Below are positions 114-15,150 of a DNA stretch of 64,000 nucleotides, in pieces. The stretch's first letter is position 1. Each line of letters starts with the position of its first letter. Source of the stretch: Candidatus Poribacteria bacterium (GTDB lineage: Bacteria; Poribacteria; WGA-4E; WGA-3G); the NCBI GenBank assembly GCA_028820845.1, contig JAPPII010000013.1, positions 1 to 64,000 on the forward strand, given 5' to 3'. The notes below the pieces were generated by a model. It was given only the letters and a program-made list of their open reading frames with translations. It searched no databases and was not told the origin of the DNA. The translations under genes were made by a program, and so were the position numbers.

Positions 114-581
114 TCACTCAACAAAATCCTCAAGTACAATTACATTTAACTCACTAACTTCCAGTTTCTTCAAATCTTTGTCGTTAGTGACAAAGATATC
201 ACAGCCATTCTCTAATGCTGTAGCAACAATTAGAGCATCAGGGGTTCGGATGGATGGATATTCTGAACGCAGTTTTCCCGCCCGTTCCGCTATCTCATAG
301 GTAACTGTGAGCACTTGAATTGACAATGAGGAGAGAAATCGCTTGAAACGTTCAATCTCTGCTATCTTTCCATCTGCAAACGGTTTAGTTACAAATTCTG
401 TCACTGATATTGCTGAGAGGAAACCTTTAATTTTCTCATCATTAATTTTGTTGAATATTTCCTCTGCTAAAAGATAGTACGGTTCAATATCTTCAAGGTA
501 ATATATAAGAACTGGGGTATCCAAGAACACTGACGTGGCTTTGGAACCAGCTGAGTGAATATCTAAAACTTTCTGTTCCAT
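114..581 (-). CDS. PIN-domain ribonuclease, last gene of the putative defence cassette
   Basis: A 155-residue PIN-fold protein (VapC-like). PIN domains are Mg2+-dependent ribonucleases, often toxins of toxin-antitoxin systems. The acidic metal-site residues are visible: D21 in VFLDTPVLIYY, E62 in SVTEF, D115 in TPDALIVA and D134 in VTNDKDL, so the active site looks intact. The usual DTN is DTP here. The start ATG lies 19 nt inside the end of the HerA gene, so the two are translationally coupled. No VapB-type antitoxin gene is seen next to it. Its place at the end of a HerA-NurA operon suggests an effector or accessory nuclease rather than a free-standing toxin; that is inference. The 113 bases downstream hold nothing recognisable. 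Confidence 0.88.
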   Translation of the reverse strand: MEQKVLDIHSAGSKATSVFLDTPVLIYYLEDIEPYYLLAEEIFNKINDEKIKGFLSAISVTEFVTKPFADGKIAEIERFKRFLSSLSIQVLTVTYEIAERAGKLRSEYPSIRTPDALIVATALENGCDIFVTNDKDLKKLEVSELNVIVLEDFVE

Positions 582-2485
582 GCTTCCCTCTCTGACGCAA
601 GATAAGCATCAATTTCTTCAACGGTACTTCCCCATGTGCCTTTCATTGAGCCACGCATTTCCCGAATCAATTCTTTCTTTTCGTCGTGAGAAAGTTCAGA
701 AGTGACAGAAGGAATAGCTTTGGATTCAACTTTACTTTGTTGCTGTACTGAAATTTGATTCTCTTTCAAAAAATTATTAGGATCTGTGAAAGCGTTTAAG
801 AAAAGTGGGGTCCCGGCAAATGAGAGCGGTGAAACAGGACCAATAGTCATGAACGCGTAATCTCGAGACGCGATATCAAACGAAGATTGTGGATCGCGAA
901 AAAGTTGGTAAAGATCAAGGGCTTTACTACGGCCACCAACAAGATTACGCAATGCCTGAAACTCTGCGCCCATTGATAATCCAAAACCAAAGAAGTAAAT
1001 ACGCAACTGTTGGGCAATTTCACGGTGCAGACTCGACAAGGTTTGAGATATGAACATCCAACCTACACCATATTTACGAGTGGTTCGCACCGAATCAATA
1101 AAGATATTGCGGATTTGTTTCATTGTATCATTATCAGGGCTATCAGCAGGAGCCAAACGGTGAGCTTCATCCATTAGAACTAGGGTGTTAAGGTTTTGTT
1201 TTTCAGTGTAGGCGGATTCAGCTGATAGACGAATGCCTTCCAAAAGTCTCTTGATCACTAATGCCTGAATAGTGTCGTTCCAAAATAGATCTGTTTCACC
1301 TTTAATCGCTAAATCAATGATAATCAAAGGCTTGTTTCCCTTTTTGAACAAACTATATAGAATACTCTCTACAGCTTGTGCGCCTGCACGATTTGAATCA
1401 AATAATCGGGCAATTGGTGCCCAAATATCACGATAAAATTCATTAGGATCAGCACTTGTATGCGCGGATGAAAAACGCTTAAGAGGTCCCGGAGAACGGT
1501 AAAAAATTTGTTGAGTAGATTCTTGTCCGAGAAGGGACCAAGCCTCATTAAAAGATTCTCGCTTATGTAAATCCGATAGTTTAACTTTTTTCTTCTTAAG
1601 TTCGTCGATTAAAGTATTGGCTGCTATATCTCGATTTTCGGTTTTTGGAATGGTGAGTTTTTCAAAAAAAGGTGATTCATAAAGTATTTGTGCAAATAGT
1701 TCCCATCTATCTAAAACAAGGTTCTGGACGCTAATGACCTTTGTTGTTTTGTTCAGGCTGTCTAAGACCTCTTTTACCGGTAGTTGAAAACTACCCAAAA
1801 CTCCTGTTCCTGAAGCTTCTTGTGAAAATTCTCCCTGTGGATCAATTACCAATATTCCCATACTTTCATGGTGAGCATAAGCCAGCATAATCATTTTTGC
1901 CAAGACTGATTTACCAGAACCGGTCTTACCAAAAATTCCCAAGTGATATGCCTCGCCTGCTCCATCTTCGCCAGTATCAAAATGTTTAAACCATAGAGGT
2001 AATTTAGGCTTTGAGCCATAAACGCGTCCTAAATAGACAATCTGCTCCTTATATGGATAAAGTAACATATCCAAAACATCGTTATTTACTTGTTGAATCG
2101 GTGTTCCTGTAGATGGGACCGTCCCTAAACTACTGGGGCGATAACTGCCGTTTTCGTCGGAAAAGACAGCACTGACAATCATTTCACCTTGATGCGTGTC
2201 CTGCCGTTCACTGACTGCATCAACTTTGCCACGCTGCCGTATCAAACTCCGCATGGTAGGGTCTTCGTGCCAGATGTTCTTCAGGGCGATTTCAGTGATC
2301 TGTCCCAACGCGTAATGGTCAAGACCGTCTTGTATATAGTCGAAAATAGCCAATTCACCGACTAACTTCTTATCAACGGCAGTTGATAAAATATCCAAGG
2401 CAAGTTCCGTTGTAGAAGATGGTGAACCAATAACGCCAATTCTTTCGGCCTGATCAATCAATTGGCTTAATTTTTGATCGGACAT
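563..2485 (-). CDS. herA: HerA-type hexameric DNA translocase/ATPase
   Basis: A 640-residue HerA/FtsK-superfamily ATPase. The N-terminus (about 15-65) fits the HAS-barrel of HerA (GVIGSPSSTTE, LVGELAIFDY). The ATPase core has Walker A GKTGSGKS at 186-193 and Walker B LVLMDEAH at 435-442, followed by a sensor/arginine-finger region near RTTRKYGVGWMF. HerA proteins form hexameric rings that pump DNA to the partner nuclease NurA; archaeal pairs act in end resection, and several bacterial HerA-nuclease pairs are anti-phage. Here NurA is encoded 2 bp upstream and a PIN nuclease overlaps the 3' end, so the ATPase sits between two nucleases. The length is typical of bacterial HerA. Confident family call; the physiological role is inferred from context. 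Confidence 0.93.
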   Translation of the reverse strand: MSDQKLSQLIDQAERIGVIGSPSSTTELALDILSTAVDKKLVGELAIFDYIQDGLDHYALGQITEIALKNIWHEDPTMRSLIRQRGKVDAVSERQDTHQGEMIVSAVFSDENGSYRPSSLGTVPSTGTPIQQVNNDVLDMLLYPYKEQIVYLGRVYGSKPKLPLWFKHFDTGEDGAGEAYHLGIFGKTGSGKSVLAKMIMLAYAHHESMGILVIDPQGEFSQEASGTGVLGSFQLPVKEVLDSLNKTTKVISVQNLVLDRWELFAQILYESPFFEKLTIPKTENRDIAANTLIDELKKKKVKLSDLHKRESFNEAWSLLGQESTQQIFYRSPGPLKRFSSAHTSADPNEFYRDIWAPIARLFDSNRAGAQAVESILYSLFKKGNKPLIIIDLAIKGETDLFWNDTIQALVIKRLLEGIRLSAESAYTEKQNLNTLVLMDEAHRLAPADSPDNDTMKQIRNIFIDSVRTTRKYGVGWMFISQTLSSLHREIAQQLRIYFFGFGLSMGAEFQALRNLVGGRSKALDLYQLFRDPQSSFDIASRDYAFMTIGPVSPLSFAGTPLFLNAFTDPNNFLKENQISVQQQSKVESKAIPSVTSELSHDEKKELIREMRGSMKGTWGSTVEEIDAYLASEREAWNRKF

Positions 2486-2487
2486 TT

Positions 2488-3642
2488 TTACCTCCCTGAT
2501 TCTGTGCGGTAACTGTGAAGACCAACGAAAACGTCATCGATGTTTCCCTGATAGTCTTCTGCAAGATGTTGACTGGTTATCTGGCGAAAAGCGGGGACGG
2601 CCCTAGGTAAATGTTTAACCATTCTGTCTGCCAGATAAAGAGGGTATGGCTCCATAATAGCAGCTGTGCTGCACTGATCCTTGATACCTTGTAAAACGAT
2701 ACCTAATCTGGGGCGATTTTTGGCAATAGTTTGACTCATTTCCAAACGTAAAGCTGGCATATAAGCGTGAGGTCGATAATAAAGAAAATGGACCCTGTTC
2801 AAAGATTGTAAAACTTGCTCAACGATTTGGTCTATCTCGTTTAAGGTAGCAACATCAGTGAAATCGTTAATTACTGAAGTGCCGAGATGCCAGGAGTAGG
2901 TAGAGAGTAAAGCAGGAGTTGTATACTCACCCGGTTCCAAAATAGAACTTAGCAATCCGCGATCATCATGAGAGTCGGGCCATCCCAATTTTTTGCCTAT
3001 TTCCCTACGAGAGGTATACTTAGGTATAGCTATCCATTGCCGGTCATTACGTGGAGGATTTAAAAGGCAGTAATACGCCTCAAGAAAAGACTGGATTTTA
3101 TTAACTAAATATCCTTTAACGGTTTTGAGATGAGGCCATTCCTTGGCTTTGCTAAAACCTTGATTAAAGTAAATGACAGGAGTGGTTAATGAACCATCCA
3201 AAAGAACAAGTTCATGAGGGGCTTGTTGGGCTAAAATCAACTCCATTCCAATCATCCCTGCGCGTAAGATGGAACTCGTGTCGGGATTATGAGTTTCAGT
3301 TTCGACATGGACAAAATGATTAGGTTCCGGCCAAAAACGTTTTTCGGAAGGGGGGGTCAAACCCTCAACTGCTACTGCGCCAGCTACCACCAAATCTGTC
3401 GCTAAAAGTCTTTCAACAGCGTAGGACCCGTCAACACCACAAGTAGTTGGGCTTTGTGTTACAGGCAAGCTGGAATCATGCATCACCAAACCAGAGTCAA
3501 TAAGTTGCTTGCGCCATACTTCTCTTTTGTTTCGCAGCTCTTCAAAAGATTCTAATAACTCTTGCCCTATTCCTTCAGTTCGTTTAAGGACCTCATCAAC
3601 GAGAGATTTTGGGAGTTCACTAAAATCAACCGATTCGTTCAT
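2488..3642 (-). CDS. nurA: NurA-domain 5'-3' nuclease, HerA partner
   Basis: A 384-residue protein with a NurA nuclease domain. The first catalytic aspartate is D71 in CGVDGSYAVERL, the second D149 in LVLLDGSLTTP; both are NurA hallmarks (RNase H-like fold, Mn2+-dependent nuclease working with HerA). An N-terminal coiled-coil-like region (about 10-50, rich in E/L/K/R) precedes the domain. The start ATG is 2 bp after the stop of the DruA-type gene, and its own stop is 2 bp before herA, so translation is almost certainly coupled along the operon. NurA homologues in bacteria are much rarer than in archaea and are often carried in mobile or defence loci. The cassette context argues for DNA degradation or restriction over housekeeping repair. 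Confidence 0.88.
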   Translation of the reverse strand: MNESVDFSELPKSLVDEVLKRTEGIGQELLESFEELRNKREVWRKQLIDSGLVMHDSSLPVTQSPTTCGVDGSYAVERLLATDLVVAGAVAVEGLTPPSEKRFWPEPNHFVHVETETHNPDTSSILRAGMIGMELILAQQAPHELVLLDGSLTTPVIYFNQGFSKAKEWPHLKTVKGYLVNKIQSFLEAYYCLLNPPRNDRQWIAIPKYTSRREIGKKLGWPDSHDDRGLLSSILEPGEYTTPALLSTYSWHLGTSVINDFTDVATLNEIDQIVEQVLQSLNRVHFLYYRPHAYMPALRLEMSQTIAKNRPRLGIVLQGIKDQCSTAAIMEPYPLYLADRMVKHLPRAVPAFRQITSQHLAEDYQGNIDDVFVGLHSYRTESGR

Positions 3643-3644
3643 TA

Positions 3645-5669
3645 TTATTTTACTCCTTCACTATCTACTTCGGGTAAGAGGAGGTCTACGGAGAATTGAA
3701 CCTTCGATTTTAATTCCTTAAGCAAATTGCGAATCCACACTGCTCCCTTGTCTCCGTAGTTGATTGCTTTGATCAGTTTCTCAAAGTCGGCAATTATGCT
3801 TCTGATACCCCTCAAGTAGTTGCTGTAACCTCTAATTGCCTCGTTGCTAATAGCATAGGATCGAGAAGTCGTTGTGAATGCTATCTTTTTTGTGGTACAT
3901 TCGTCTATGAATTCCTCGTAGGTGAGATGCTCTGAGAGTTGATGTTTACTAAAAGTATTTTCGAGCGTTTGCCTTTTTTCTATTGCTTTGATGACAAGTT
4001 GCTCGCGTTCCCTTTCTTCATCACCAGTTTTGGCTTTCTTTATGCTCTGCTGGTTAATACTCGAGTTCGCTTGTTTAATTGCAAAAAAACTGCTCTGGTT
4101 ACCTTCCCATAACTTCCACTCTTGAGGTTCCCACGTCCTATAGTATTTATTTTTTTTACTGTGAGGCAGCAACCATCTTTCACGATACCACTTGAATAGT
4201 TCACTTACGGGTTGATCGTAATAGTGCAGTTCTCGGTCATTACCACATAGGAAAGCGCGAGTATTTTCTGCCAATGGTGCCACATATATTTCTCGCTTAA
4301 TTCCATGATTAAGCCAACTTTTAGGTAACCCTAACTTACCAAGTGCCTTTTGAACCACCTCTTGTTTGTTTCTAAATCCTGACCCCCAAGATTCATGGCT
4401 AGCTGTGGCAGTAGCATTTGATTTCGCATACGCTATTAGTGAACCGTAAATTCCATTGGAGAAGTGAAATTCACCGAATCCCTGCGTGTGTCCTACGCGC
4501 TGAAAAACAAGTCGTTTCTCAAGATGTTCTATCTCAATATCCGGCTGCGCTGATAGATTTGGTTCTGCACATTTGAGACGGTTATACATTGACGATCTTT
4601 CAAGCGCAGAAGTAGTTGTTATCATTGCGATATCGCCAGCATTTTCTCGTTTTCGAATTACTGATTTTTTTCCTTTGTATTTGTGCTTGAATGCTTCACG
4701 AACTTCATTACTGGTGGCCAATAGTGCTATGAGTTTACCGCCTAACAAAAACGAATAAGGTGGAACTGCTCCCAATACAAAAGCATCTACAACATGATGG
4801 AGTCTCTCTTTTCTATCTTCATGATTCCAACCTACCCATTGATCACGATGTCTCAAACTAAAAACGGGATCTCCCAAACCGAACAAACCCATCACTTTAT
4901 TTGTATGTTGGTCCATTACAAGGTATCTGAGTCTTCGACCATACCCTGAAGATACTGGTATACTCCAATGTAAGCCAGCGTATCGAAACAAAAGTGCTTC
5001 TTTTGACCCCGCATGTACTTCAACAAGTTTAGGATTGATTTTATCCGGGACAATCTCTTCTCCAGAAGCAAAACATTGTAGTAAAGATGGCTCATGTTCA
5101 ATAAGACCTTTTTTATTTTCCTCAATTTTGTGGCAAACTGCCTCATTATGCAGTTTCCTAATTTTTCTCTTATCAAGGTATTCAGGTAAGTAAACTTCGT
5201 TGTCTTGAACTTTAAAACCTTGGGTTTTAAGAGAATTTGTAATGCGAGTTTTAAGGGTTTTGGCGTATACAGGACTAGCGTATAAGGTGTTAAGGATGGT
5301 TGATACTTCTTCATCCGCGTGGAAGTGTGCCTGTAGCGATTCAAAGACACCAGCATCACACCAGTGCCTAAAACGTTGGTATATAGTATGCATGTTGCCA
5401 TACTTATCAGGTAAATCACTCCAGGTGGTTTCCTCTTTTGCTAGCCACGAAATAGCAGAGAGGAACAAACGACATTTTTCTGGACTTCCAACGCGGACCT
5501 TTGGGTAATCAGCGAGAAAAAGCTGTATTTGATCCCAAACAGCATCCGTTATTTGCCATGGTAGTTCTTGGGAATTGTCTGTTTTTTTCTTTTTCATATG
5601 CGTATGGTATTCAAATTTGCTTGGGCGTTTCTTGTGAGCAAAAACCCTTCGTCGGGGGAACAAGGTCAT
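3645..5669 (-). CDS. DUF4338/DruA-type protein with N-terminal IS5-type (DUF4096) transposase domain
   Basis: A 674-residue open frame with two unrelated parts. Residues about 39-116 match the N-terminal domain of IS5-family transposases (DUF4096): ITDAVWDQIQLFL, TTWSDLPDKYG, IYQRFRHWCDAGVFE. Residues about 215-335 match DUF4338, the DruA family of the Druantia anti-phage system: RRLRYLV, SLRHRDQWVGW, RKERLHHVVDAFVLG. The remaining C-terminal half (VGHTQGFGEFHF, HESWGSGFRN, a charged C-terminal coil) fits the longer DruA-like proteins. No DDE catalytic core of IS5 is present, so this is not a transposase. The start is uncertain: M1 or M25 (position 5597); neither has a clear ribosome-binding site, and M25 loses nothing of the domains. 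It is co-directional with rpn 22 bp upstream and nurA 2 bp downstream. Whether the fusion is ancient or a recent IS scar cannot be told from one sequence. Confidence 0.8.
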   Translation of the reverse strand: MTLFPRRRVFAHKKRPSKFEYHTHMKKKKTDNSQELPWQITDAVWDQIQLFLADYPKVRVGSPEKCRLFLSAISWLAKEETTWSDLPDKYGNMHTIYQRFRHWCDAGVFESLQAHFHADEEVSTILNTLYASPVYAKTLKTRITNSLKTQGFKVQDNEVYLPEYLDKRKIRKLHNEAVCHKIEENKKGLIEHEPSLLQCFASGEEIVPDKINPKLVEVHAGSKEALLFRYAGLHWSIPVSSGYGRRLRYLVMDQHTNKVMGLFGLGDPVFSLRHRDQWVGWNHEDRKERLHHVVDAFVLGAVPPYSFLLGGKLIALLATSNEVREAFKHKYKGKKSVIRKRENAGDIAMITTTSALERSSMYNRLKCAEPNLSAQPDIEIEHLEKRLVFQRVGHTQGFGEFHFSNGIYGSLIAYAKSNATATASHESWGSGFRNKQEVVQKALGKLGLPKSWLNHGIKREIYVAPLAENTRAFLCGNDRELHYYDQPVSELFKWYRERWLLPHSKKNKYYRTWEPQEWKLWEGNQSSFFAIKQANSSINQQSIKKAKTGDEEREREQLVIKAIEKRQTLENTFSKHQLSEHLTYEEFIDECTTKKIAFTTTSRSYAISNEAIRGYSNYLRGIRSIIADFEKLIKAINYGDKGAVWIRNLLKELKSKVQFSVDLLLPEVDSEGVK

Positions 5670-5691
5670 TTACGTACAGATGTTACAATAT

Positions 5692-6720
5692 TCAGCCCTG
5701 AATATCTTCAAGGCTTTGGGCGGTCATCACCCGCTCTAAAAGGATATCAAGGTGTGAAAGATTTTGGATGGAGGTGATCCGATCGGTGAGTGTTTCTGGG
5801 ACGTTCTGAAATCGGATCCGTAGAAGCTGTAGGATTGCTGCCTGTTTGCCTTCTATGATGCCCTCGGCTTTGCCTTGTTCTATAAGGAATTCAGCCGCTG
5901 TTTGTGCCATGATTACTACCTCACTTTCATCTTGACTATGGCGTTTGACCAATTCTATTAACTCTTCACGCTCCTCAGCTGACCGACGATGCAGAATCAA
6001 TTGGATAAAATAGAGAAGTGCTGGACGCACTTGCGATACTTGTGCTTCATCCAACCGACTTAACGCCGATACCGCGGATGCTAACGCTTCACTGAGTGCT
6101 GATTTCCCCGAACGCTCTTTTTGAAGAACACTTAACAACCACCCTAATGGATGCCCAGGCTTCGTTAGAGTCTCTCGATCTGCTGTTTTTACTTCTAAAA
6201 ATAGGGTGTCAAACGTCGGCACAAATCGCTCCAGGATTTCGGGGACCTCCATTATTGCCGTCAGCGACAACGGAGAAGTCCACCGCCGATCCCCTGTGTA
6301 AAATACTATCGGTAAGATCGGATCCAAACGTCGTCTCGACCCAGCCTCCGACTGCCACTCCCGCCACTGCCCTTGCCATATCTCCATCATATAAGACAAC
6401 ATCCGAAATCCCATCGTAGGATCTACCGTCGATTGATGCTCAATCAGAATATAGATAAGGAGTTCTTCGTTCTCAGTCGTCCTCTGAAACGGCACACGTA
6501 GCAGGACATCCGACTCCCGCTCCCGCAACGCATCGGAGATAAAACTCCGATTCTGCTGCGTACCTCTGCTGAAATCAAGGAGCCCTACAAGGTCAGGCGC
6601 GATGATTTCTACTAAGCCTCGCACATACTCCGGGTCCTGGAGCAACCGTCTGATACTTCGGTCAGGGAAATGTTCTATCAGGATATCAGAAGGTTCAAGA
6701 GATTTCGGGGCTTTTAACAT
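5692..6720 (-). CDS. Rpn-family recombination-promoting nuclease / putative transposase
   Basis: A 342-residue member of the Rpn/PD-(D/E)XK family (formerly transposase_31). The nuclease core is visible as D71 in RERESDVLLRV followed by E94 and Q96 in ILIEHQST, with NRSFISDALRE just before. The C-terminal FLIEQGKAEGIIEGK stretch is typical of the family. E. coli Rpn proteins are Mg2+-dependent DNA nucleases that promote RecA-independent recombination. It is the first gene after the promoter at 6771-6799 and lies 22 bp before the DruA-type gene, so it is probably co-transcribed with the HerA-NurA cassette. A paralogue lies at 29795-30895 without that company, so membership in a functional system is not assured. 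Confidence 0.9.
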   Translation of the reverse strand: MLKAPKSLEPSDILIEHFPDRSIRRLLQDPEYVRGLVEIIAPDLVGLLDFSRGTQQNRSFISDALRERESDVLLRVPFQRTTENEELLIYILIEHQSTVDPTMGFRMLSYMMEIWQGQWREWQSEAGSRRRLDPILPIVFYTGDRRWTSPLSLTAIMEVPEILERFVPTFDTLFLEVKTADRETLTKPGHPLGWLLSVLQKERSGKSALSEALASAVSALSRLDEAQVSQVRPALLYFIQLILHRRSAEEREELIELVKRHSQDESEVVIMAQTAAEFLIEQGKAEGIIEGKQAAILQLLRIRFQNVPETLTDRITSIQNLSHLDILLERVMTAQSLEDIQG

Positions 6721-6770
6721 AAGTACCTAAATTTTCAATCCATTCAGACTGAAGATGAGATTTGAAGAAT

Positions 6771-6799
6771 AGTATAGCCTCAGTGCTCCTAGAAATCAA
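6771..6799 (-). promoter_or_regulatory. Sigma70-like promoter of the rpn-DruA-nurA-herA-PIN cassette
   Basis: Read on the minus strand: TTGATT, a 17-base spacer, TATACT. The -10 box is about 50 bases before the rpn start codon, with AGGT as a weak ribosome-binding site. No comparable promoter was noticed inside the cassette, which supports one transcript starting with rpn. A 7-bp hairpin at 6831-6846 on the far side may end transcription coming from leuD, though it has no T tract. Confidence 0.55.
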
Positions 6800-6914
6800 G
6801 TTGTTTTTTCATGGGGGCGGGGCCTTTTAGCCCTCTTGTAAGAGGGAACACCAATTCCTGACTCCTTCAGGACTTTCTCAGCTTCCTTCGCTGGCGAAGA
6901 AATCCGATACAAGA

Positions 6915-7496
6915 CTATTGATTTTCATAGGCAGCAATATCCGTTTCATACTGCAAGGTCCAGCCGATTTCATCAAGTCCGTTCAGTAAACAATACTTCT
7001 CAAAATCGCCAATCTCAAAATTGTGTGCAGTGCCGTCAGGGCAAATCACCGATTGCGCCTCCAAGTCTACCATCAACTGGTAACCCTCAGTGTCGTGTGC
7101 TGTTTGGCTGAGTGAGGCGATAACATCCGCAGGTAAGGCTATCGGGAGAATGCCGTTTTTATAGCAGTTATTACGGAATATGTCTGCAAACGAGGGTGCC
7201 AAAATCGCTTTGAAACCGTACTGCTGGAGTGCCCACGGGGCATGTTCACGCGAGCTACCGCAACCGAAATTCGCGCCCGCAATGAGAATGCTTGCACCGG
7301 CGTAGCGCGGGAGGTTCAACACGAATTCTGGGTTCGGATCGCCGTTTTCGAGGTAACGCCAATCGTTGAAGAGAAACTCGCCGAATCCGGTGCGTTCAAT
7401 CCGTTTCAAAAATTGCTTCGGGATAATCTGGTCGGTGTCAACATTAATTCGATCGAGTGGGACGACACGTCCAACGTGTTCTTTGAATGCTTCCAT
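6915..7496 (-). CDS. leuD: 3-isopropylmalate dehydratase small subunit
   Basis: LeuD, the small (swivel-domain) subunit of isopropylmalate isomerase, which converts 2- to 3-isopropylmalate in leucine biosynthesis in the cytoplasm. Recognised by [19 protein letters not shown] and the [17 protein letters not shown] motif of the aconitase swivel domain. The open frame runs to 7547, but the ATG at 7496 has AAAGGAAA upstream and gives a 193-residue protein of normal length beginning MEAFKEHVG. It follows leuC by 72 bp on the same strand; the pair forms the heterodimer. Confidence 0.95.
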
Positions 7497-7568
7497 ATTT
7501 TTTGTTTCCTTTATATTCGAGATTGAAGGCAAAGGTCCTCCTTCCAATCTTCCAGTTTTCCATGCTTT

Positions 7569-8969
7569 CTACTGAAACGTTCGGATGTCTACAAAATGTC
7601 CCGTTACCGCAGTGGCGGCAGCCATCTGTGGACTCACAAGGTGCGTGCGTCCGCCTTTGCCCTGTCTGCCTTCAAAGTTTCGGTTCGACGTGCTGGCACA
7701 ACGTTGACCTGGCATTAAGATATCGGGATTCATGCCGAGGCACATGCTACATCCCGCTTCGCGCCATTCAAAACCTGCAGCACGGAAAATCTCGTCGAGT
7801 CCTTCTGCTTCCGCTTGGCGTTTAACCGCCTGTGAACCTGGGACGACCATCGCGCTGACGGTCTCTGCAACCTTCCTGCCCTGCGCGACTTCAGCGGCAG
7901 CCCGTAAATCACTGATGCGGGAATTGGTGCAGCTGCCAATAAAGACTCTGTCTACCGGAATATCTGTGATTGGCGTACCGGGTTTGAGATCCATGTATGC
8001 TAAGGCGTGTTCAGTGGCAGTCTTCTCATCGGTTGTCGTCATCTCTGCTGGATCCGGCACGCGACCGGTTACATCGGTTACCATACCTGGGTTTGTCCCC
8101 CACGTTACTTGTGGTGCAATGTCCGCTGCATCGAGTAGTAGAGTCCGATCGTAGGTTGCTCCATCGTCGGTCGGGAGCTGCTTCCAGCGTTCAACCGCTG
8201 CGTCAAATTCTTCGCCTTTCGGTGCGAAACGCTTGCCAGCGATGTATTCATAGGTAGTCTCGTCAGGTGCAATCATTCCCGCGCGTGCACCTGCCTCAAT
8301 CGACATGTTGCAAACGGTCATCCGTTCCTCAATGCTAAGGGCACGGATCGCAGCACCTGTATACTCCACGACGGCACCGTTGCCACCGTCGATACCGATG
8401 TGTCCAATAATCGCGAGAATAATGTCTTTTGCGGTAACGCCATAAGGCAGTGTGCCATCAATCCGAATCTCGAAGGTCTCCGATTTCTGTTGCAAGAGGC
8501 ACTGCGTTGCGAGGACATGCTCAATTTCACTCGTACCGATACCGAAAGCGAGTGCGCCGAGTGCGCCGTGCGTTGAGGTGTGGCTATCACCACAGACGAT
8601 GGTTTTGCCGGGTTGTGTAATACCGAGTTCGGGTCCGATGACGTGGACGATGCCTTGTTCGGGACTGTCGATATCGTAGAGCGGAATGTCAAACTCAGCG
8701 CAGTTTTCCGCCAGCGTTTCCATCTGTTTCGCGGCAATCAGGTCGGTAATCGGTAGTGATCGGTCTGTTGTCGGTACGTTGTGATCCATGGTCGCGAAGG
8801 TCAGATCCGGACGGCGTACCTTTCGGTTATTAAGCCGCAATCCTTCAAATGCTTGTGGGGATGTGACTTCATGAACGAGGTGCGTGTCGATATAGAGGAT
8901 CGGCACCTCGTCTGCGGAAGCGCGAACGAGATGCGCCTCCCATATCTTTTCGTACATTGTTTTTGGCAT
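7569..8969 (-). CDS. leuC: 3-isopropylmalate dehydratase large subunit
   Basis: LeuC, 466 residues, the [4Fe-4S]-binding large subunit of isopropylmalate isomerase. Aconitase-family signatures are present: [33 protein letters not shown] with the first cluster cysteine, and [13 protein letters not shown] with the other two. AAGGT precedes the ATG by about 12 bases. It lies 31 bp downstream of a branched-chain-type binding protein gene and upstream of leuD. Full length and intact. Confidence 0.97.
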
Positions 8970-9000
8970 AATTTTGTTTTACCTTATGTCTCTGACGGAG

Positions 9001-10149
9001 TTATTCAAACGCCTGCAACGTGCCATCTTTCACTCTCAGGACCTTCGGATCATAGATAGCGTCCCCGTTGGCAGCAAAAGAGAATTTGCCGAAAACTGTG
9101 TCAAAGTCTTTGATGTCCGCCAGCGCGTCTCGAATCGCAGCCGAATCGGTGGATTCGGCATTCCTAATTGCCTCCGCTAAGATATAGACGGAAGTATACG
9201 CGACCATAGCAAATCCGTCTGGTTCCATCCCAAACGTTTCGCTATAATTCTGAACGAAAGCTTGATTTCCGGGGGTGTCATCTGTGCTAATCCAACTTAC
9301 GAACGTGACTGCCCCCTCGGCGGCGGGCCCCGCAGCTGCTACCTCAACATCGGTTAACGAAGAAATAATAATGGGAGCCGTTAAACCGAGGTGGCGTGCT
9401 TGAATCAGGATTCCTGGTTTTTCCGGTGGCAATGCTGAGACGAAAATAGCATCCGGATTCAACGCTTTTATCCGAGTGAGTTGCGCTGAGAAGTCAGTAT
9501 CACCGGTTTGGAAAGTTTCTGGGGTGAGCCCCTCAATACCATTTGCTTCAAATATTTTCCGTAATACCGTGTCTTGATCTGTAGAAAAGAGATCCGTGTC
9601 GTCATATAACGTGGCTACTCGTTGATAACCGAGTTTCGCATGCGTTTCCTTGATGCCCGCGGCAATAGCGACCGCCGTCGTGAGTGGAATACGGAAAACA
9701 AAGTCACCGATGTCAGTAAGGCCGCTTGCTCCCGCTGTCGGGCTGAGTGCCACGATCTTGTGTGCTTGTGCAATCGGGAAACCCGCTTGTGTTGCACTCG
9801 ATGTTGAGGGACCGAGAATAGCAACCACGCTATCTGTCCCAATGAGTTTATTGAATGCCTGAACCGTCCCTTCTGGCGTGCCCATATCGTCCTCAAAGAT
9901 AAACTTGAGTCGGACCTCGCTGACATTTGCCTTGGTGATTTCATCAATAGCGAGTGCGAACCCCTGTTCCATACGTTCACCCGTAGCAGCCACGTGTCCT
10001 GTCAAAGGTAAAACGATTCCGATAGCAATCTCACTACGCTTCTCTTCTATTTCAGGTGTAGCAGGTTGGACAATTTGTGATGCCCGCTCACAGGCAGAGA
10101 AACCTACTATCAGGGTAGCAATTGCCACGATAGATGTAAATAATTTCAA
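9001..10149 (-). CDS. Leucine/branched-chain-type ABC substrate-binding lipoprotein (TTG start)
   Basis: A 382-residue type I periplasmic binding protein (Peripla_BP_6, LivJ/LivK family), which captures branched-chain amino acids or similar ligands for an ABC importer. It has a lipoprotein signal with lipobox VGFSAC (Cys20). Family motifs include GIVLPLTGHVAATGERMEQG, LGPSTSSATQAGFPIAQ and SPTAGASGLTD. The start is TTG, supported by AAGGAG about 10 bases upstream; the preceding TTG is closed by a stop at once. No permease or ATPase genes (livHMGF) lie beside it, so it is an orphan here. Its position between leuS/rnj and leuCD fits leucine-related use, but the ligand is not proven. Confidence 0.9.
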   Translation of the reverse strand: MKLFTSIVAIATLIVGFSACERASQIVQPATPEIEEKRSEIAIGIVLPLTGHVAATGERMEQGFALAIDEITKANVSEVRLKFIFEDDMGTPEGTVQAFNKLIGTDSVVAILGPSTSSATQAGFPIAQAHKIVALSPTAGASGLTDIGDFVFRIPLTTAVAIAAGIKETHAKLGYQRVATLYDDTDLFSTDQDTVLRKIFEANGIEGLTPETFQTGDTDFSAQLTRIKALNPDAIFVSALPPEKPGILIQARHLGLTAPIIISSLTDVEVAAAGPAAEGAVTFVSWISTDDTPGNQAFVQNYSETFGMEPDGFAMVAYTSVYILAEAIRNAESTDSAAIRDALADIKDFDTVFGKFSFAANGDAIYDPKVLRVKDGTLQAFE

Positions 10150-10177
10150 TTCAATTTACTCCTTATTAAATTTCGCT

Positions 10178-10765
10178 TTATTTCCCATAAAACTTAACTT
10201 CTCGAATTACAATATCTTTGAACGGCACTGTGATTTTATCTGTTGACGGTTCTCGTGTCGATTTGGCACTGTCTCGCTCGGATGTGGCAGTGAGTCGGAG
10301 AAACAGTATATCTCGTTCAATGCTAACACGTATCACAGCGGCATTTTCAGATTTTGCCCGGCGATTGTCAGAAATACGTGTGAAGCGGTGTGCTTGGTCT
10401 GATTCTGCTGTGTCTATTGTGAGGCTCAGAATGTTTGATGCAGGATGAATCTCAACGTAAGTTACATACTCAGCAGAATTAAGCTGAATCAACGCTTGGA
10501 CCTTATTCGTTCCTTGTATGGAGTCCTGATACCTGTAGGGAAGTGTGACTCCGTCCGTATGATCCTTTTCAACAGAACCCTCCACCTTCAGAATGCTGGA
10601 CGTACCCATGTTCCCATCAACCAGCCGCGGATAATTCTTGCACTGAAGTTGGACAGCGGGAATCTCTGTCGGCGGCGGTTGATTCAATATCGCGCAACCG
10701 GGAACTAAGAGTGTCGTTAGGAAGAGTAAAAACTTCTCTCGTAGGGGACAGTTTAAGAGTTTCAT
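10178..10765 (-). CDS. Putative lipoprotein with discoidin-like beta-sandwich
   Basis: About 195 residues. The open frame reaches a GTG at 10780, but the ATG at 10765 has GAGG nine bases upstream and gives MKLLNCPLREK, a short basic n-region and a hydrophobic stretch ending in the lipobox LLVPGC. The body (LVDGNMGTSSILKVEG, TYVEIHPASNILSLTIDT, VIREVKFYGK at the end) resembles F5/8 type C (discoidin) domains in its beta-strand pattern; this is a weak resemblance and no function is assigned. It sits 28 bp upstream of the binding-protein gene and 77 bp after rnj, so probably in the same transcript, on the outer face of a membrane. Confidence 0.7.
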   Translation of the reverse strand: MKLLNCPLREKFLLFLTTLLVPGCAILNQPPPTEIPAVQLQCKNYPRLVDGNMGTSSILKVEGSVEKDHTDGVTLPYRYQDSIQGTNKVQALIQLNSAEYVTYVEIHPASNILSLTIDTAESDQAHRFTRISDNRRAKSENAAVIRVSIERDILFLRLTATSERDSAKSTREPSTDKITVPFKDIVIREVKFYGK

Positions 10766-10842
10766 AATTGCAATCCTCACGTATGCAAACGGAAGTGGAA
10801 TGCCTGTTCTGCTCCATCGGATGTAGATGTTTGAATTGCCCT

Positions 10843-12579
10843 CTAAACCCGCATAACAACTGGGAAGATGAGCGGTGTCCGTTGCATCTGTTTTGAGAAA
10901 AAGCGACGGAGCGCGCTTCGGATCTCATCTTGGACTATCTCCGTTTCGTGTTTCTGTTCATCGCTCAGATTTTCGATGACGCGTCGGGTAATCTCTTTCG
11001 CCTCTTCTATGAGTTCTTCCGATTCGTCCATATAGACAAATCCACGCGAGATGATTTCTATCTGTCCAGCGTTCAATCCTGTTTTGGAATGGCTATCCGC
11101 AGAAATATTCTCTTGCTGGTCGCCATCACCTGTGTCGCTCTGTAGGACAATAATAGGCACGAGGATGCCGTCTTCAGAAAGTTGGATACGGTCACGCAGG
11201 ACAATATCCTCAAGTTCGATTTCTGGTTTGCCATCGACAAGGACCCGTCCGGAACGGCCCTCGCGTCCAAAGACTTCACACATTTCAGATGTAAGGCGGA
11301 TAAGTTCGCCATCTTCAGCGACTTTGATGTTTTCACTCGGCACCCCGACAGATTCAGCGAGTTCGGCGTGCCGCATCAGATTTTGGTATTCACCGTGCAT
11401 CGGCATAAAGAATTTAGGCTGCAGGAGGTTGAGCATTAACTTCAAGTCTTCACTCGAACCATGACCGGAGACATGTACGTTGGCGTTGCGTTCATGATAT
11501 ATCTTCGCGCCACGCCTAAGCAAATGGTTCACCACGTTCCCGATTGACTTTTCGTTACCTGGAATGATGCGTGCCGACATAACCACAGTATCACCCTGTT
11601 CCACCTTTAAAAACGCGTGATCATCAAGTGCCATCAATGCCAGTGCCGAACGTGGTTCGCCTTGGCTGCCGGTTGTTAAAATCACAACCTCGTGTGGTTT
11701 GAACAGAGACGCATCGCGGGCATCAATAAGATAGTCAGGATTCACATTGAGGTAGCCGAGTTCAGAAGCCGTGCGGACATTGTTGATGAGAGAACGTCCG
11801 GTGACAGCAACGAGTCGCCGATGAATATTCGCGAGATCAATGAATTGCTGGATACGGTGGAGACTTGAGGAAAATGTGCAAAGGAACAGTTTCTGCTCCG
11901 TTTTCTGAAAGATATTGTCTATAGTATCATAGATGCTTCGCTCGGACGGTGTTTGTCCGGGACGTTCTGCGTTTGTGCTGTCGGAGACGAGCATCGTGAC
12001 GCCTTCTGCACCTAAACGGGCGAGCCTCTGAACATCGCTTAGCTTACCATCGACAGGGGTCATGTCGAACTTGAAATCACCCGTATGAACAATAACACCG
12101 ACGGGTGTGTGGAGTGCGATTGCTACACTGTCGGGAATGCTATGTGTGACATGGATGAATTCGGCAGAAAAGGCACCCAGTTCAACGGTATCGCCCGGGG
12201 CAATTGTGTTGAGTTGTGCTTTGCCGAGTACACCGTATTCACGGAGTCTGCCGCTTGCGATTGCGAGGGTGAGCTGCGTGCCGTAAACCGGCACGTCTAA
12301 CTGCCGTAGGACATAGGCTAAAGCACCAATATGGTCTTCGTGTCCGTGAGTCAGAAGGATTCCGCGAATCTTCTTCTGCCGTTCAACGAGATAATGAATA
12401 TCTGGGAATATTAGGTCAACGCCGGGCATGTCTGCATTCGGGAGCATGAAACCGGTATCGATGACGATAAGGTCGTCCTCGGTTTCATACACCATCATAT
12501 TCATCCCAAATTCGCCTAAGCCGCCCAATGGGATGATTGAGACGTTCGCTTCAGTTATATCTTCAAGATTTTTTCTCAT
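10843..12579 (-). CDS. rnj: Ribonuclease J
   Basis: RNase J, 578 residues, a beta-CASP metallo-beta-lactamase RNase with 5'-3' exonuclease and endonuclease activity in mRNA decay and rRNA maturation. Zinc motif LTHGHEDHIGAL, then HTGDFKFD, the beta-CASP region with LVSDSTNAERPG and VILTTGSQGEP, the HVSGHGSSEDLK motif and MPMHGEYQNL are all present. The C-terminal domain (DEQKHETEIVQDEIRSALRR) is complete. It starts 18 bp after the leuS stop, so the two are probably co-transcribed. No anomalies seen. Confidence 0.96.
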   Translation of the reverse strand: MRKNLEDITEANVSIIPLGGLGEFGMNMMVYETEDDLIVIDTGFMLPNADMPGVDLIFPDIHYLVERQKKIRGILLTHGHEDHIGALAYVLRQLDVPVYGTQLTLAIASGRLREYGVLGKAQLNTIAPGDTVELGAFSAEFIHVTHSIPDSVAIALHTPVGVIVHTGDFKFDMTPVDGKLSDVQRLARLGAEGVTMLVSDSTNAERPGQTPSERSIYDTIDNIFQKTEQKLFLCTFSSSLHRIQQFIDLANIHRRLVAVTGRSLINNVRTASELGYLNVNPDYLIDARDASLFKPHEVVILTTGSQGEPRSALALMALDDHAFLKVEQGDTVVMSARIIPGNEKSIGNVVNHLLRRGAKIYHERNANVHVSGHGSSEDLKLMLNLLQPKFFMPMHGEYQNLMRHAELAESVGVPSENIKVAEDGELIRLTSEMCEVFGREGRSGRVLVDGKPEIELEDIVLRDRIQLSEDGILVPIIVLQSDTGDGDQQENISADSHSKTGLNAGQIEIISRGFVYMDESEELIEEAKEITRRVIENLSDEQKHETEIVQDEIRSALRRFFSKQMQRTPLIFPVVMRV

Positions 12580-12597
12580 ATAAGTGGTTTTCGCTTT

Positions 12598-15150
12598 TTA
12601 AACAACGATGTTAATAAGACGGTTTGGTACGACGATGACCTTCCGAATCGGTTTGCCATCAGTAAACCGTTGAACCCGATCATCTGCGAGTGCTGCTGCT
12701 TCAATCTCTTTGTCGGTTGCATCGGCAGGTAGTTGGAGCCGGTTACGGAGTTTCCCGTTGACCTGTACGATTATGGTTGTAGTTGCACTTGTCAGGACTG
12801 CCTCGTCGTGTGTGGGCCACTGTTCATGTGCAATGAATCCTGTTTCACCGAGACGGTGCCACAATTCTTGTGCGATGTGCGGCGCGTAAGGCGAAAGCAG
12901 ATGCAAGAACGCCTTCAAGGTTTCTCTCGGCAGCGATTTCGCTTGTGTGGCAGCGTTAACGAAAATCATCATCTGACTAATTGCCGTGTTCATCTTATCA
13001 ATGGATTCAGTGTCTTCTGTTACCTGTTTGATAGTTTGGTGGAGTTCGCGCCAAAGTTCAGGTGCCGTTATGCCATCAGCGTCGGTGAGTTTCTCGCTGA
13101 GTTCACCGTTCTCTTCATTCACAACAAGTCGCCAGACGCGTTGCAGGAATCGGTAGACCCCCTCCACCCCGGCATCTTGCCACGGCGTACTGGCTGTAAC
13201 AGGTCCAATGAACAGCAGATAAAGCCGAATTGCATCCGCACCGTATTTATCAATCACATCGTCTGAGTTGATGACATTAAAACGGGATTTAGACATCTTT
13301 TCTATTTGCACATTGAGTGGTGTACCAGAGGTTTTCACAACCGCTTTTCCATCATTCTGCTCGACTTCGTGCGGATAATAGTACTTGCCTCGGGCATCTT
13401 GATAAGATTCAGCGAGGATCGTACCTTGGTTGACCAAACCTTGGAAAGGCTCTTTCGTTGAAACTAAACCACAATCATACAAAACTTTATGCCAAAACCG
13501 GGCGTAGAGTAGATGGAGTACTGCATGTTCTGCACCACCCAGGTAAAGGTCAACAGGCATCCAATATTGTTCAAGTGCCGAGTCAAAAGGTGCTTCAACA
13601 TTGTGGGCATCAAGGAAACGGAGATAGTACCAGCAAGAACCCGCCCACTGCGGCATGATATTCGTTTCCCGCGTCGCGGTTCGTCCGTCTGGTAGCGTCA
13701 CGTTCAACCACTCGGATCCAGCACGAGCAAGCGGGGGTTGCCCATCTTCTGTCGGCTTGTAAGCATCAATAGGTGGAAGTTCGAGGGGTAGATCTTCGTC
13801 AGGCAGTTGAACGATGGTGCCATCTTCAAGATGGGCAAGTGGGAAAGGTTCCCCCCAATACCGTTGTCGCGAGAAGAGCCAGTCGCGTAAACGATATTGA
13901 ACCTGCCGCTTGCCTCTCCCTTCACTTTCGAGCCATATAATCATCTTCTCCTTCGCCGCATCAACCCGCAAGCCGTTGAGGAAATCAGAATTAACACAGA
14001 CACCATCGCCTTCAAAAGGTGCTTCTTCAATAGGCTTTTTGCCGCCCTTGATAACCTCAATAATAGGAATATCAAAAGTTGAAGCGAATTCATGGTCACG
14101 TTCGTCGTGTCCCGGGACCGCCATGATGGCACCCGTGCCATAAGTCATAAGGACGTAATCCGCAACCCAGATTGGGATAGGCGTATTGTTACATGGGTTG
14201 ATAGCGTAAGCACCTGTGAATACCCCCGTCTTTTCAGTGGCGAGGTCGGTGCGCTGGAGGTCGGATTTGTTGATAGCCTCCTTAACGTAAGCACTAACAG
14301 TCGGTGCCGCATCAGGATGTGTGATTTCTGAGACGAGCGGGTGTTCGGGTGCCAGCACGCAATAAGTGGCACCGAACAGCGTATCCGGACGGGTCGTGAA
14401 AACTGTGAAAGTCTTATCGCTGTCTTTGATGCTGAAGGTGATGTCTGCCCCTTCCGACTTACCGATCCAGTGCCGTTGCATCTCCTTGAGTCCATCAGGC
14501 CAATCCAATAAATCTAAGTCTTCCAGCAATTGGTCGGCATAGGCAGTGATTTTGAGCATCCACTGCCGCATGAGGCGGCGTTCAACAGGGTCACCAGTTT
14601 CAACATATTTCCCATCTTTGACCTCTTCATTTGAGAGGACAGTTCCCAACGCGGGACACCAGTTCACCGGGACATCGGCGAGGTATGCAAGATCTTTTTC
14701 ATAGAGACGGAGAAAAATCCATTGTGTCCACCTGTAATAATCCGGTAGGGAGGTATCAATTTCACGCGACCAATCGTACGAGAAACCGATACGTTGCATC
14801 TGGTGCCGGAAGGTGTCCGTGTTTCGTCGGGTGATATCTATTGGATGTTCGTTTTCGCGCACTGCGAACCGCTCCGTTGGGAGACCGAAGGCATCCCAAC
14901 CCATCGGATGCATGACGTGATAGCCCTGCATACGTCGGAAATTCGCAAGAACATCGGTAGGCAAGTAGTTTTTCGAGTGACCCACGTGCAGCCCAGCACC
15001 TGAGGTATATGGGAACATGCCAAGTACATAAAATTTCGGCTTGGTCTTTAATGTTTCGATATCGTTTGGAATTTTAAATGCTTCTTTTTTTTGCCACTCG
15101 GCTTGCCAATGCGGCTCTATTCTCGCCGGGGCATAAGGATGATTCTCCAT
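12598..15150 (-). CDS. leuS: Leucyl-tRNA synthetase
   Basis: LeuRS, charging tRNA-Leu. The open frame extends to 15210, but ATG 15150 has AAAGGAG about 11 bases upstream and gives [16 protein letters not shown], the usual bacterial N-terminus; 850 residues. The HIGH-class motif appears as [14 protein letters not shown], the KMSKS loop as [11 protein letters not shown], and an editing (CP1) domain is present ([19 protein letters not shown]). The C-terminal anticodon-binding and LeuRS-specific domains ([16 protein letters not shown]) are intact. It heads a co-directional run to leuD. No T-box leader was recognised upstream. Confidence 0.97.

Follow-up and report, generated by a model that had tools for sequence, protein, structure and literature searches.

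DruA is best known from a phage-defence system. In the window, the 64,000-nt stretch of DNA analysed here, a single open reading frame (ORF) of 674 codons with no internal stop (5669..3645, minus strand) joins the N-terminal domain of an IS5 transposase to DruA, which raises the question of whether the gene carries a domesticated DNA-binding module or the scar of a recent insertion. The first-pass annotation had put forward both possibilities, after reading the ORF as an IS5-type DUF4096 domain fused in frame to a DruA-type protein. This reading holds, as both domains lie in one stop-free frame: among Pfam profiles, PF13340 (DUF4096) matches ORF residues 40-112 (E 1.2e-16; 61 bits, cut-off 34) and PF14236 (DruA) residues 166-476 (E 8.2e-110). 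An NCBIfam IS5 transposase model also matches residues 37-120 (E 2.4e-17), and the PADLOC DruA model matches the DruA of the window at E 1e-111. The DUF4096 and DruA matches are far above chance level.

The start of the gene had to be revised. The frame is indeed open from 5669 as annotated, but its first 24 codons (5669-5598) are flanking sequence and the gene begins at Met25. These codons were placed outside the gene on two grounds: the match of an operon-less genome of the same species (G056; gene order leuD-Rpn-HAD) to the window, at 98.3% identity, stops at nt 5616, and the start codons of both orthologous fusions and of intact IS5 orfA genes correspond to Met25 (nt 5597). The Rpn-type gene (PF04754; 5692-6720, minus strand) lies between leuD and the operon, and is also present in the operon-less genome. 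The features of the locus are collected in Table 1.

Table 1. Features of the fusion gene and its operon in the window (ORF residues are counted from nt 5669).
Feature	Position	Strand	Evidence
DUF4096-DruA fusion gene, 650 aa from Met at 5597	3645..5597	-	Pfam; start from G056 break at 5616, orthologues and IS5 orfA
Overall IS5 homology	5292-5597	-	Alignment
DUF4096 (PF13340), N-terminal helix-turn-helix domain of IS5-family orfA	5334..5552	-	Pfam, NCBIfam, alignment, AlphaFold
DruA domain (PF14236), GNAT-like fold	4242..5174	-	Pfam, fold search, PMC10853773
DruA C-terminal extension, ORF residues ~517-674	3645..4120	-	Alignment of orthologues
Left operon boundary, between leuD/Rpn and HAD gene	5598..5616		Comparison with empty site of relatives
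NurA-family nuclease gene, 384 aa	2488..3642	-	PF09376 E 4e-8; alignment
HerA-like ATPase gene, 640 aa	563..2485	-	PF01935 E 2.5e-14; alignment
HerA C-terminal tail, residues ~589-640, homologous to AF2212-type antitoxin C-terminus	566..721	-	Alignment with relatives
PIN-domain (VapC-like) toxin gene	114..581	-	PF01850 E 1e-20; identity to resident PIN

The AlphaFold model of the fusion (mean pLDDT 70) has an N-terminal domain made of helices, together with one long helix and an alpha/beta core, the DUF4096 part being helical with pLDDT values of ~70-84 from residue 11 onward. A fold search of the DruA model against the PDB gave no significant match; the matches listed were mostly GNAT acyltransferases with weak E-values, which agrees with the published assignment of DUF4338 to GNAT (PMC10853773). 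Comparison of the DruA and NurA sequences with solved structures found no relative, and no established molecular role of DruA was found in the literature searched. DruA-like matches occur in Synechococcus and Pelagibacter phages, and one of these is annotated as the methylcarbamoylase Mom, which hints at a Mom-like (GNAT) activity. The C-terminal extension of DruA is shared with an unfused orthologue (G016) and missing from the other two fusions (G062 and G031) and from the unfused L033.

Three Poribacteria genomes in two genera of one family, the only family in which it was found, carry the fusion: that of the window, G062 of the same genus (L032/L039) and G031 of another genus (L005/L040). 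In the latter two both domains also score over the Pfam cut-offs, and DUF4096 reaches 61-67 bits against 34 across all three. Orthologues of DruA without DUF4096 are found in the same order (G016) and in a Caldilineaceae genome (L033 in G085), and every Chloroflexota orthologue is likewise unfused. A tree built from DUF4096 domains places all fusions in one clade (100/100) nested in a clade of Poribacterial IS5 elements (100/100); the fusion arose once. The first-pass annotation had looked to independent genomes for the DUF4096-DUF4338 architecture; the two additional Poribacteria genomes carry it, but no second, independent fusion was found, either among the 28 Chloroflexota genomes with a match or in the plasmid and phage matches covering the junction, and viral contigs scanned for the IS5 domain gave no match. 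N-terminal extensions of DruA at three loci (L087, L100, L141) were considered as further fusions and excluded as evidence, since they contain no Pfam domain and some are just an upstream open frame. The DUF4096-DruA fusion appears to be undescribed.

The fusions are 65-69% identical to each other, and the single strong match to IS5 within the genome of the window (G000:C70, L034) is ~54% identical to the fusion with synonymous sites near saturation. Homology to IS5 starts at Met25 and breaks off around residue 126, where the transposase has the first catalytic Asp of its DDE domain, and the fusion therefore lacks the DDE half; the residues at this point are LLVDST in the IS and ILNTLY in the fusion. 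Intact IS5 copies have an inverted repeat, TAGGTAGTGTTTACATTT, ~50 nt before orfA, and no such end was seen upstream of the fused genes. The GC3 of the IS5-derived part, counted over no more than 100 codons, is 0.38 vs. 0.29 for the window.

Selection was measured as pN/pS over fusion codons 1-105 in three genome pairs. The IS part gave values of 0.41-0.50 (Fisher test, p 0.006, 1e-5 and about 4.5e-6) and the helix-turn-helix core alone 0.38-0.47; the 30-residue leader is unconstrained, and the DruA domain has a pN/pS of about 0.2. The IS5 domain is thus maintained, under weaker constraint than DruA. This evidence tells against a recent IS scar that captured the start of druA. The exact start of the homology at the orfA start codon would suit such a scar, but the fusion is common to two genera and forms a single clade, its nearest IS5 relative is far diverged, the upstream inverted repeat is gone and the domain is under purifying selection. 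We accordingly reject a scar, which has next to no chance of being correct. The same evidence supports the other suggestion of the first-pass annotation, domestication, namely that the DNA-binding front half of an IS5 transposase was joined to DruA long ago and has been kept by selection since.

What the domain does for DruA can be read in several ways. Target recognition, as initially suggested, may be its role. At several positions where the IS domain has a conserved arginine, the fusion has another residue (CRR to CRL, WRALP to WSxLP), so binding to IS ends may be lost, and the domain is not essential to the cassette, since the unfused orthologues do without it. It could be that the IS5 part supplied just a start codon and upstream signals, and that the domain is tolerated and decaying; its pN/pS being higher than that of DruA, the neutral look of the first 30 residues and the existence of the cassette without the domain elsewhere are in line with this. 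We nevertheless hold it unlikely, given that each of the three pairs shows significant purifying selection, that three genomes retain the helix-turn-helix core as well as the frame and the junction, that every fusion scores well over the Pfam cut-off, and that in neutral simulations with equally many changes ~1-3% remain stop-free. Transposase N-terminal domains often multimerise as well, and the domain might instead be a dimerisation or autoregulatory module that binds its own promoter or multimerises DruA; this we regard as doubtful, though somewhat less so than mere tolerance.

In the window the operon reads druA, nurA, herA and PIN, head to tail, with 2-nt gaps among the first three genes. 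Both HerA and NurA belong to established families, of DNA-translocating ATPases and of nucleases respectively. The DGS motifs of NurA with D71 and D149 are invariant in the alignment of relatives, and in HerA the P-loop GKTGSGKS and DEAH are conserved among relatives, with Walker A and B motifs intact. The grouping of these genes is recurrent. In a sample of 400 Chloroflexota genomes, 15 of the 22 strong DruA matches adjoin NurA: twelve complete DruA-NurA-HerA operons (two of the Chloroflexota genomes, G193 and G233, are near copies of one another), G420, G452 and G085. The DruA-NurA pairing in G085 is inferred from a truncated nurA that follows druA at a contig end (L033), the halves lying on different contig ends (L033 and L159). 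Of the other strong matches, two have DruE as their partner and two a different HerA. Viewed from the nuclease, 17 of the 20 strong Chloroflexota genome matches of the same NurA clade are paired with a DruA: 15 stand beside a DruA of the window type and two (G140, G205) beside a shorter one (PF14236, E 3e-32), the remaining three being found beside an unrelated gene. In Poribacteria the NurA clade is present in 4 of 85 genomes and is paired with DruA in all four. DruA is the constant partner of the NurA-HerA pair in this cassette.

The short DruA of G140 and G205 (L146 and L147; ~303 aa) heads the same NurA-HerA pair with a different N-terminal region, RTRISKEVCKRLDWKQPNGWLKDRACRDALVQLEKMGVIKLP, which may be a winged helix. 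Cassette loci (L078-L082, L084, L085, L087-L089, L091, L092, L099, L139, L141) include three virus-like contigs (L099/L140, L139 and L141), and the neighbours in some of them are an Eco57I-type methylase (L079), a serine recombinase with a ResIII helicase (L099) and phage-tail-like genes (L141). In L141 (~2748-13082) DruA-NurA-HerA is followed by a 1088-aa methylase-like protein. A distant trio in G035 has another gene order (NurA-like, HerA, DruA), and its first protein is a NurA tentatively, as it has no Pfam match. No description of a DruA-NurA-HerA system was found in the literature searched, subscription papers being outside its scope, and this operon type appears to be undescribed.

The cassette shares parts with several known systems. 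With Druantia type I (DruABCDE) it has the DruA protein (PF14236) in common, but DruB, DruC and DruD are absent beside the DruA of the window and NurA and HerA stand in their places; the large DruE helicase with DUF1998, found in Druantia of any type, is also absent from the operon. Type I-like loci (L045, L100, L101) do carry DruB, DruC and a large DruE helicase, and in L047 this helicase comes after three unnamed genes. The SIR2-HerA and DUF4297-HerA defence pairs and archaeal HerA-NurA likewise combine a HerA-type ATPase with a partner effector, here a NurA-family nuclease; the window differs from such pairs by DruA as a constant third partner and by the antitoxin tail on the Poribacterial HerA. 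PADLOC HerA models match the HerA of the window weakly (best 49 bits). From IS5-family transposases, of which the Poribacterial copies are the nearest, the fusion retains the N-terminal domain in full, beginning with the orfA Met and reaching the first DDE Asp, and differs in that DruA follows in place of the DDE domain and the inverted repeats are missing.

Several relatives lack the cassette and have, at their leuD-HAD site, an AF2212-type antitoxin (PF01954, E 1e-8 to 1e-9) next to a PIN toxin, an association that has been described (PMC2701414). Compared with such AF2212 (DUF104)-PIN pairs, the window keeps the PIN gene, 71-76% identical to the intact resident PIN, and has no separate antitoxin: HerA replaces the AF2212 N-terminal domain and only the antitoxin tail is left. 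The last ~52 residues of the window HerA align with the antitoxin C-terminus (ELSxxxKxxLxxxMRGSMKGTWGS...SERxxWNR), homology to Chloroflexota HerAs stops near residue 580 with the tail absent from these, and herA and PIN overlap by 19 nt, exactly as antitoxin and PIN do in the relatives. On these grounds the cassette seems to have inserted into a toxin-antitoxin locus, HerA gaining the antitoxin tail. In the unfused Poribacterial cassette, that of G016, HerA is cut by a contig end. Apparent HerA remnants at empty leuD-HAD sites, considered as decayed operons, are actually AF2212 antitoxins with the common tail.

Between the window and G031 the pS of nurA is about 0.3-0.5 and that of the herA tail 0.04, against about 0.55-0.89 in the flanking leuC and leuD. 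Synonymous divergence lower than in leuC and leuD suggests that the operon was transferred, or has recombined, between the genera, and with such a signal the presence of the fusion in two genera cannot by itself date it to their ancestor. Over the herA tail (566-721) and the start of PIN (357-581, minus strand) synonymous divergence is just 0.04-0.08, which suggests recombination through this stretch.

Taken together, we favour, with moderate confidence, a defence cassette of DruA, NurA and HerA with a captured IS5 DNA-binding module at the front and an antitoxin tail at the back. A Poribacterial IS5 orfA would have lost its catalytic half and the IS ends to become the in-frame N-terminal DNA-binding module of DruA, and HerA would have taken over the C-terminal tail of the resident antitoxin, directly upstream of the PIN toxin of that antitoxin. 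DruA, with its GNAT-like core and IS5 helix-turn-helix, would then sense or mark foreign DNA and load HerA-NurA in a putative complex, which would pump and degrade this DNA; a role as sensor or loader is likely for DruA with the captured domain. The HerA tail, for its part, would hold the PIN ribonuclease in check, and a loss of HerA would release the toxin as a backup. A more specific version, in which the IS5 domain steers DruA-NurA-HerA to insertion sequences or their carrier elements and the tail makes PIN a tripwire for phages or plasmids that disable HerA, is quite unlikely to be right in full. Marginally less probable still is that the operon encodes a housekeeping complex for DNA end processing or repair. 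In archaea NurA-HerA does serve as a pair in DNA repair, and resection of DNA ends by it is reported there (PMC12977600), but a distribution as patchy as 4 of 85 Poribacteria and ~5% of the sampled Chloroflexota, presence that varies inside one species (G056 is without the operon), its presence on virus-like contigs, a methylase and a recombinase as neighbours, and the suggested transfer of the operon between genera all speak against repair.

The association of DruA with NurA-HerA offers a much smaller system in which the role of DruA could be tested. The fusion represents a transposase DNA-binding domain of single origin recruited to a probable defence protein, for which the unfused sister proteins are natural controls, and the joining of HerA to an antitoxin tail suggests a simple way in which a nuclease complex may guard itself by a toxin.
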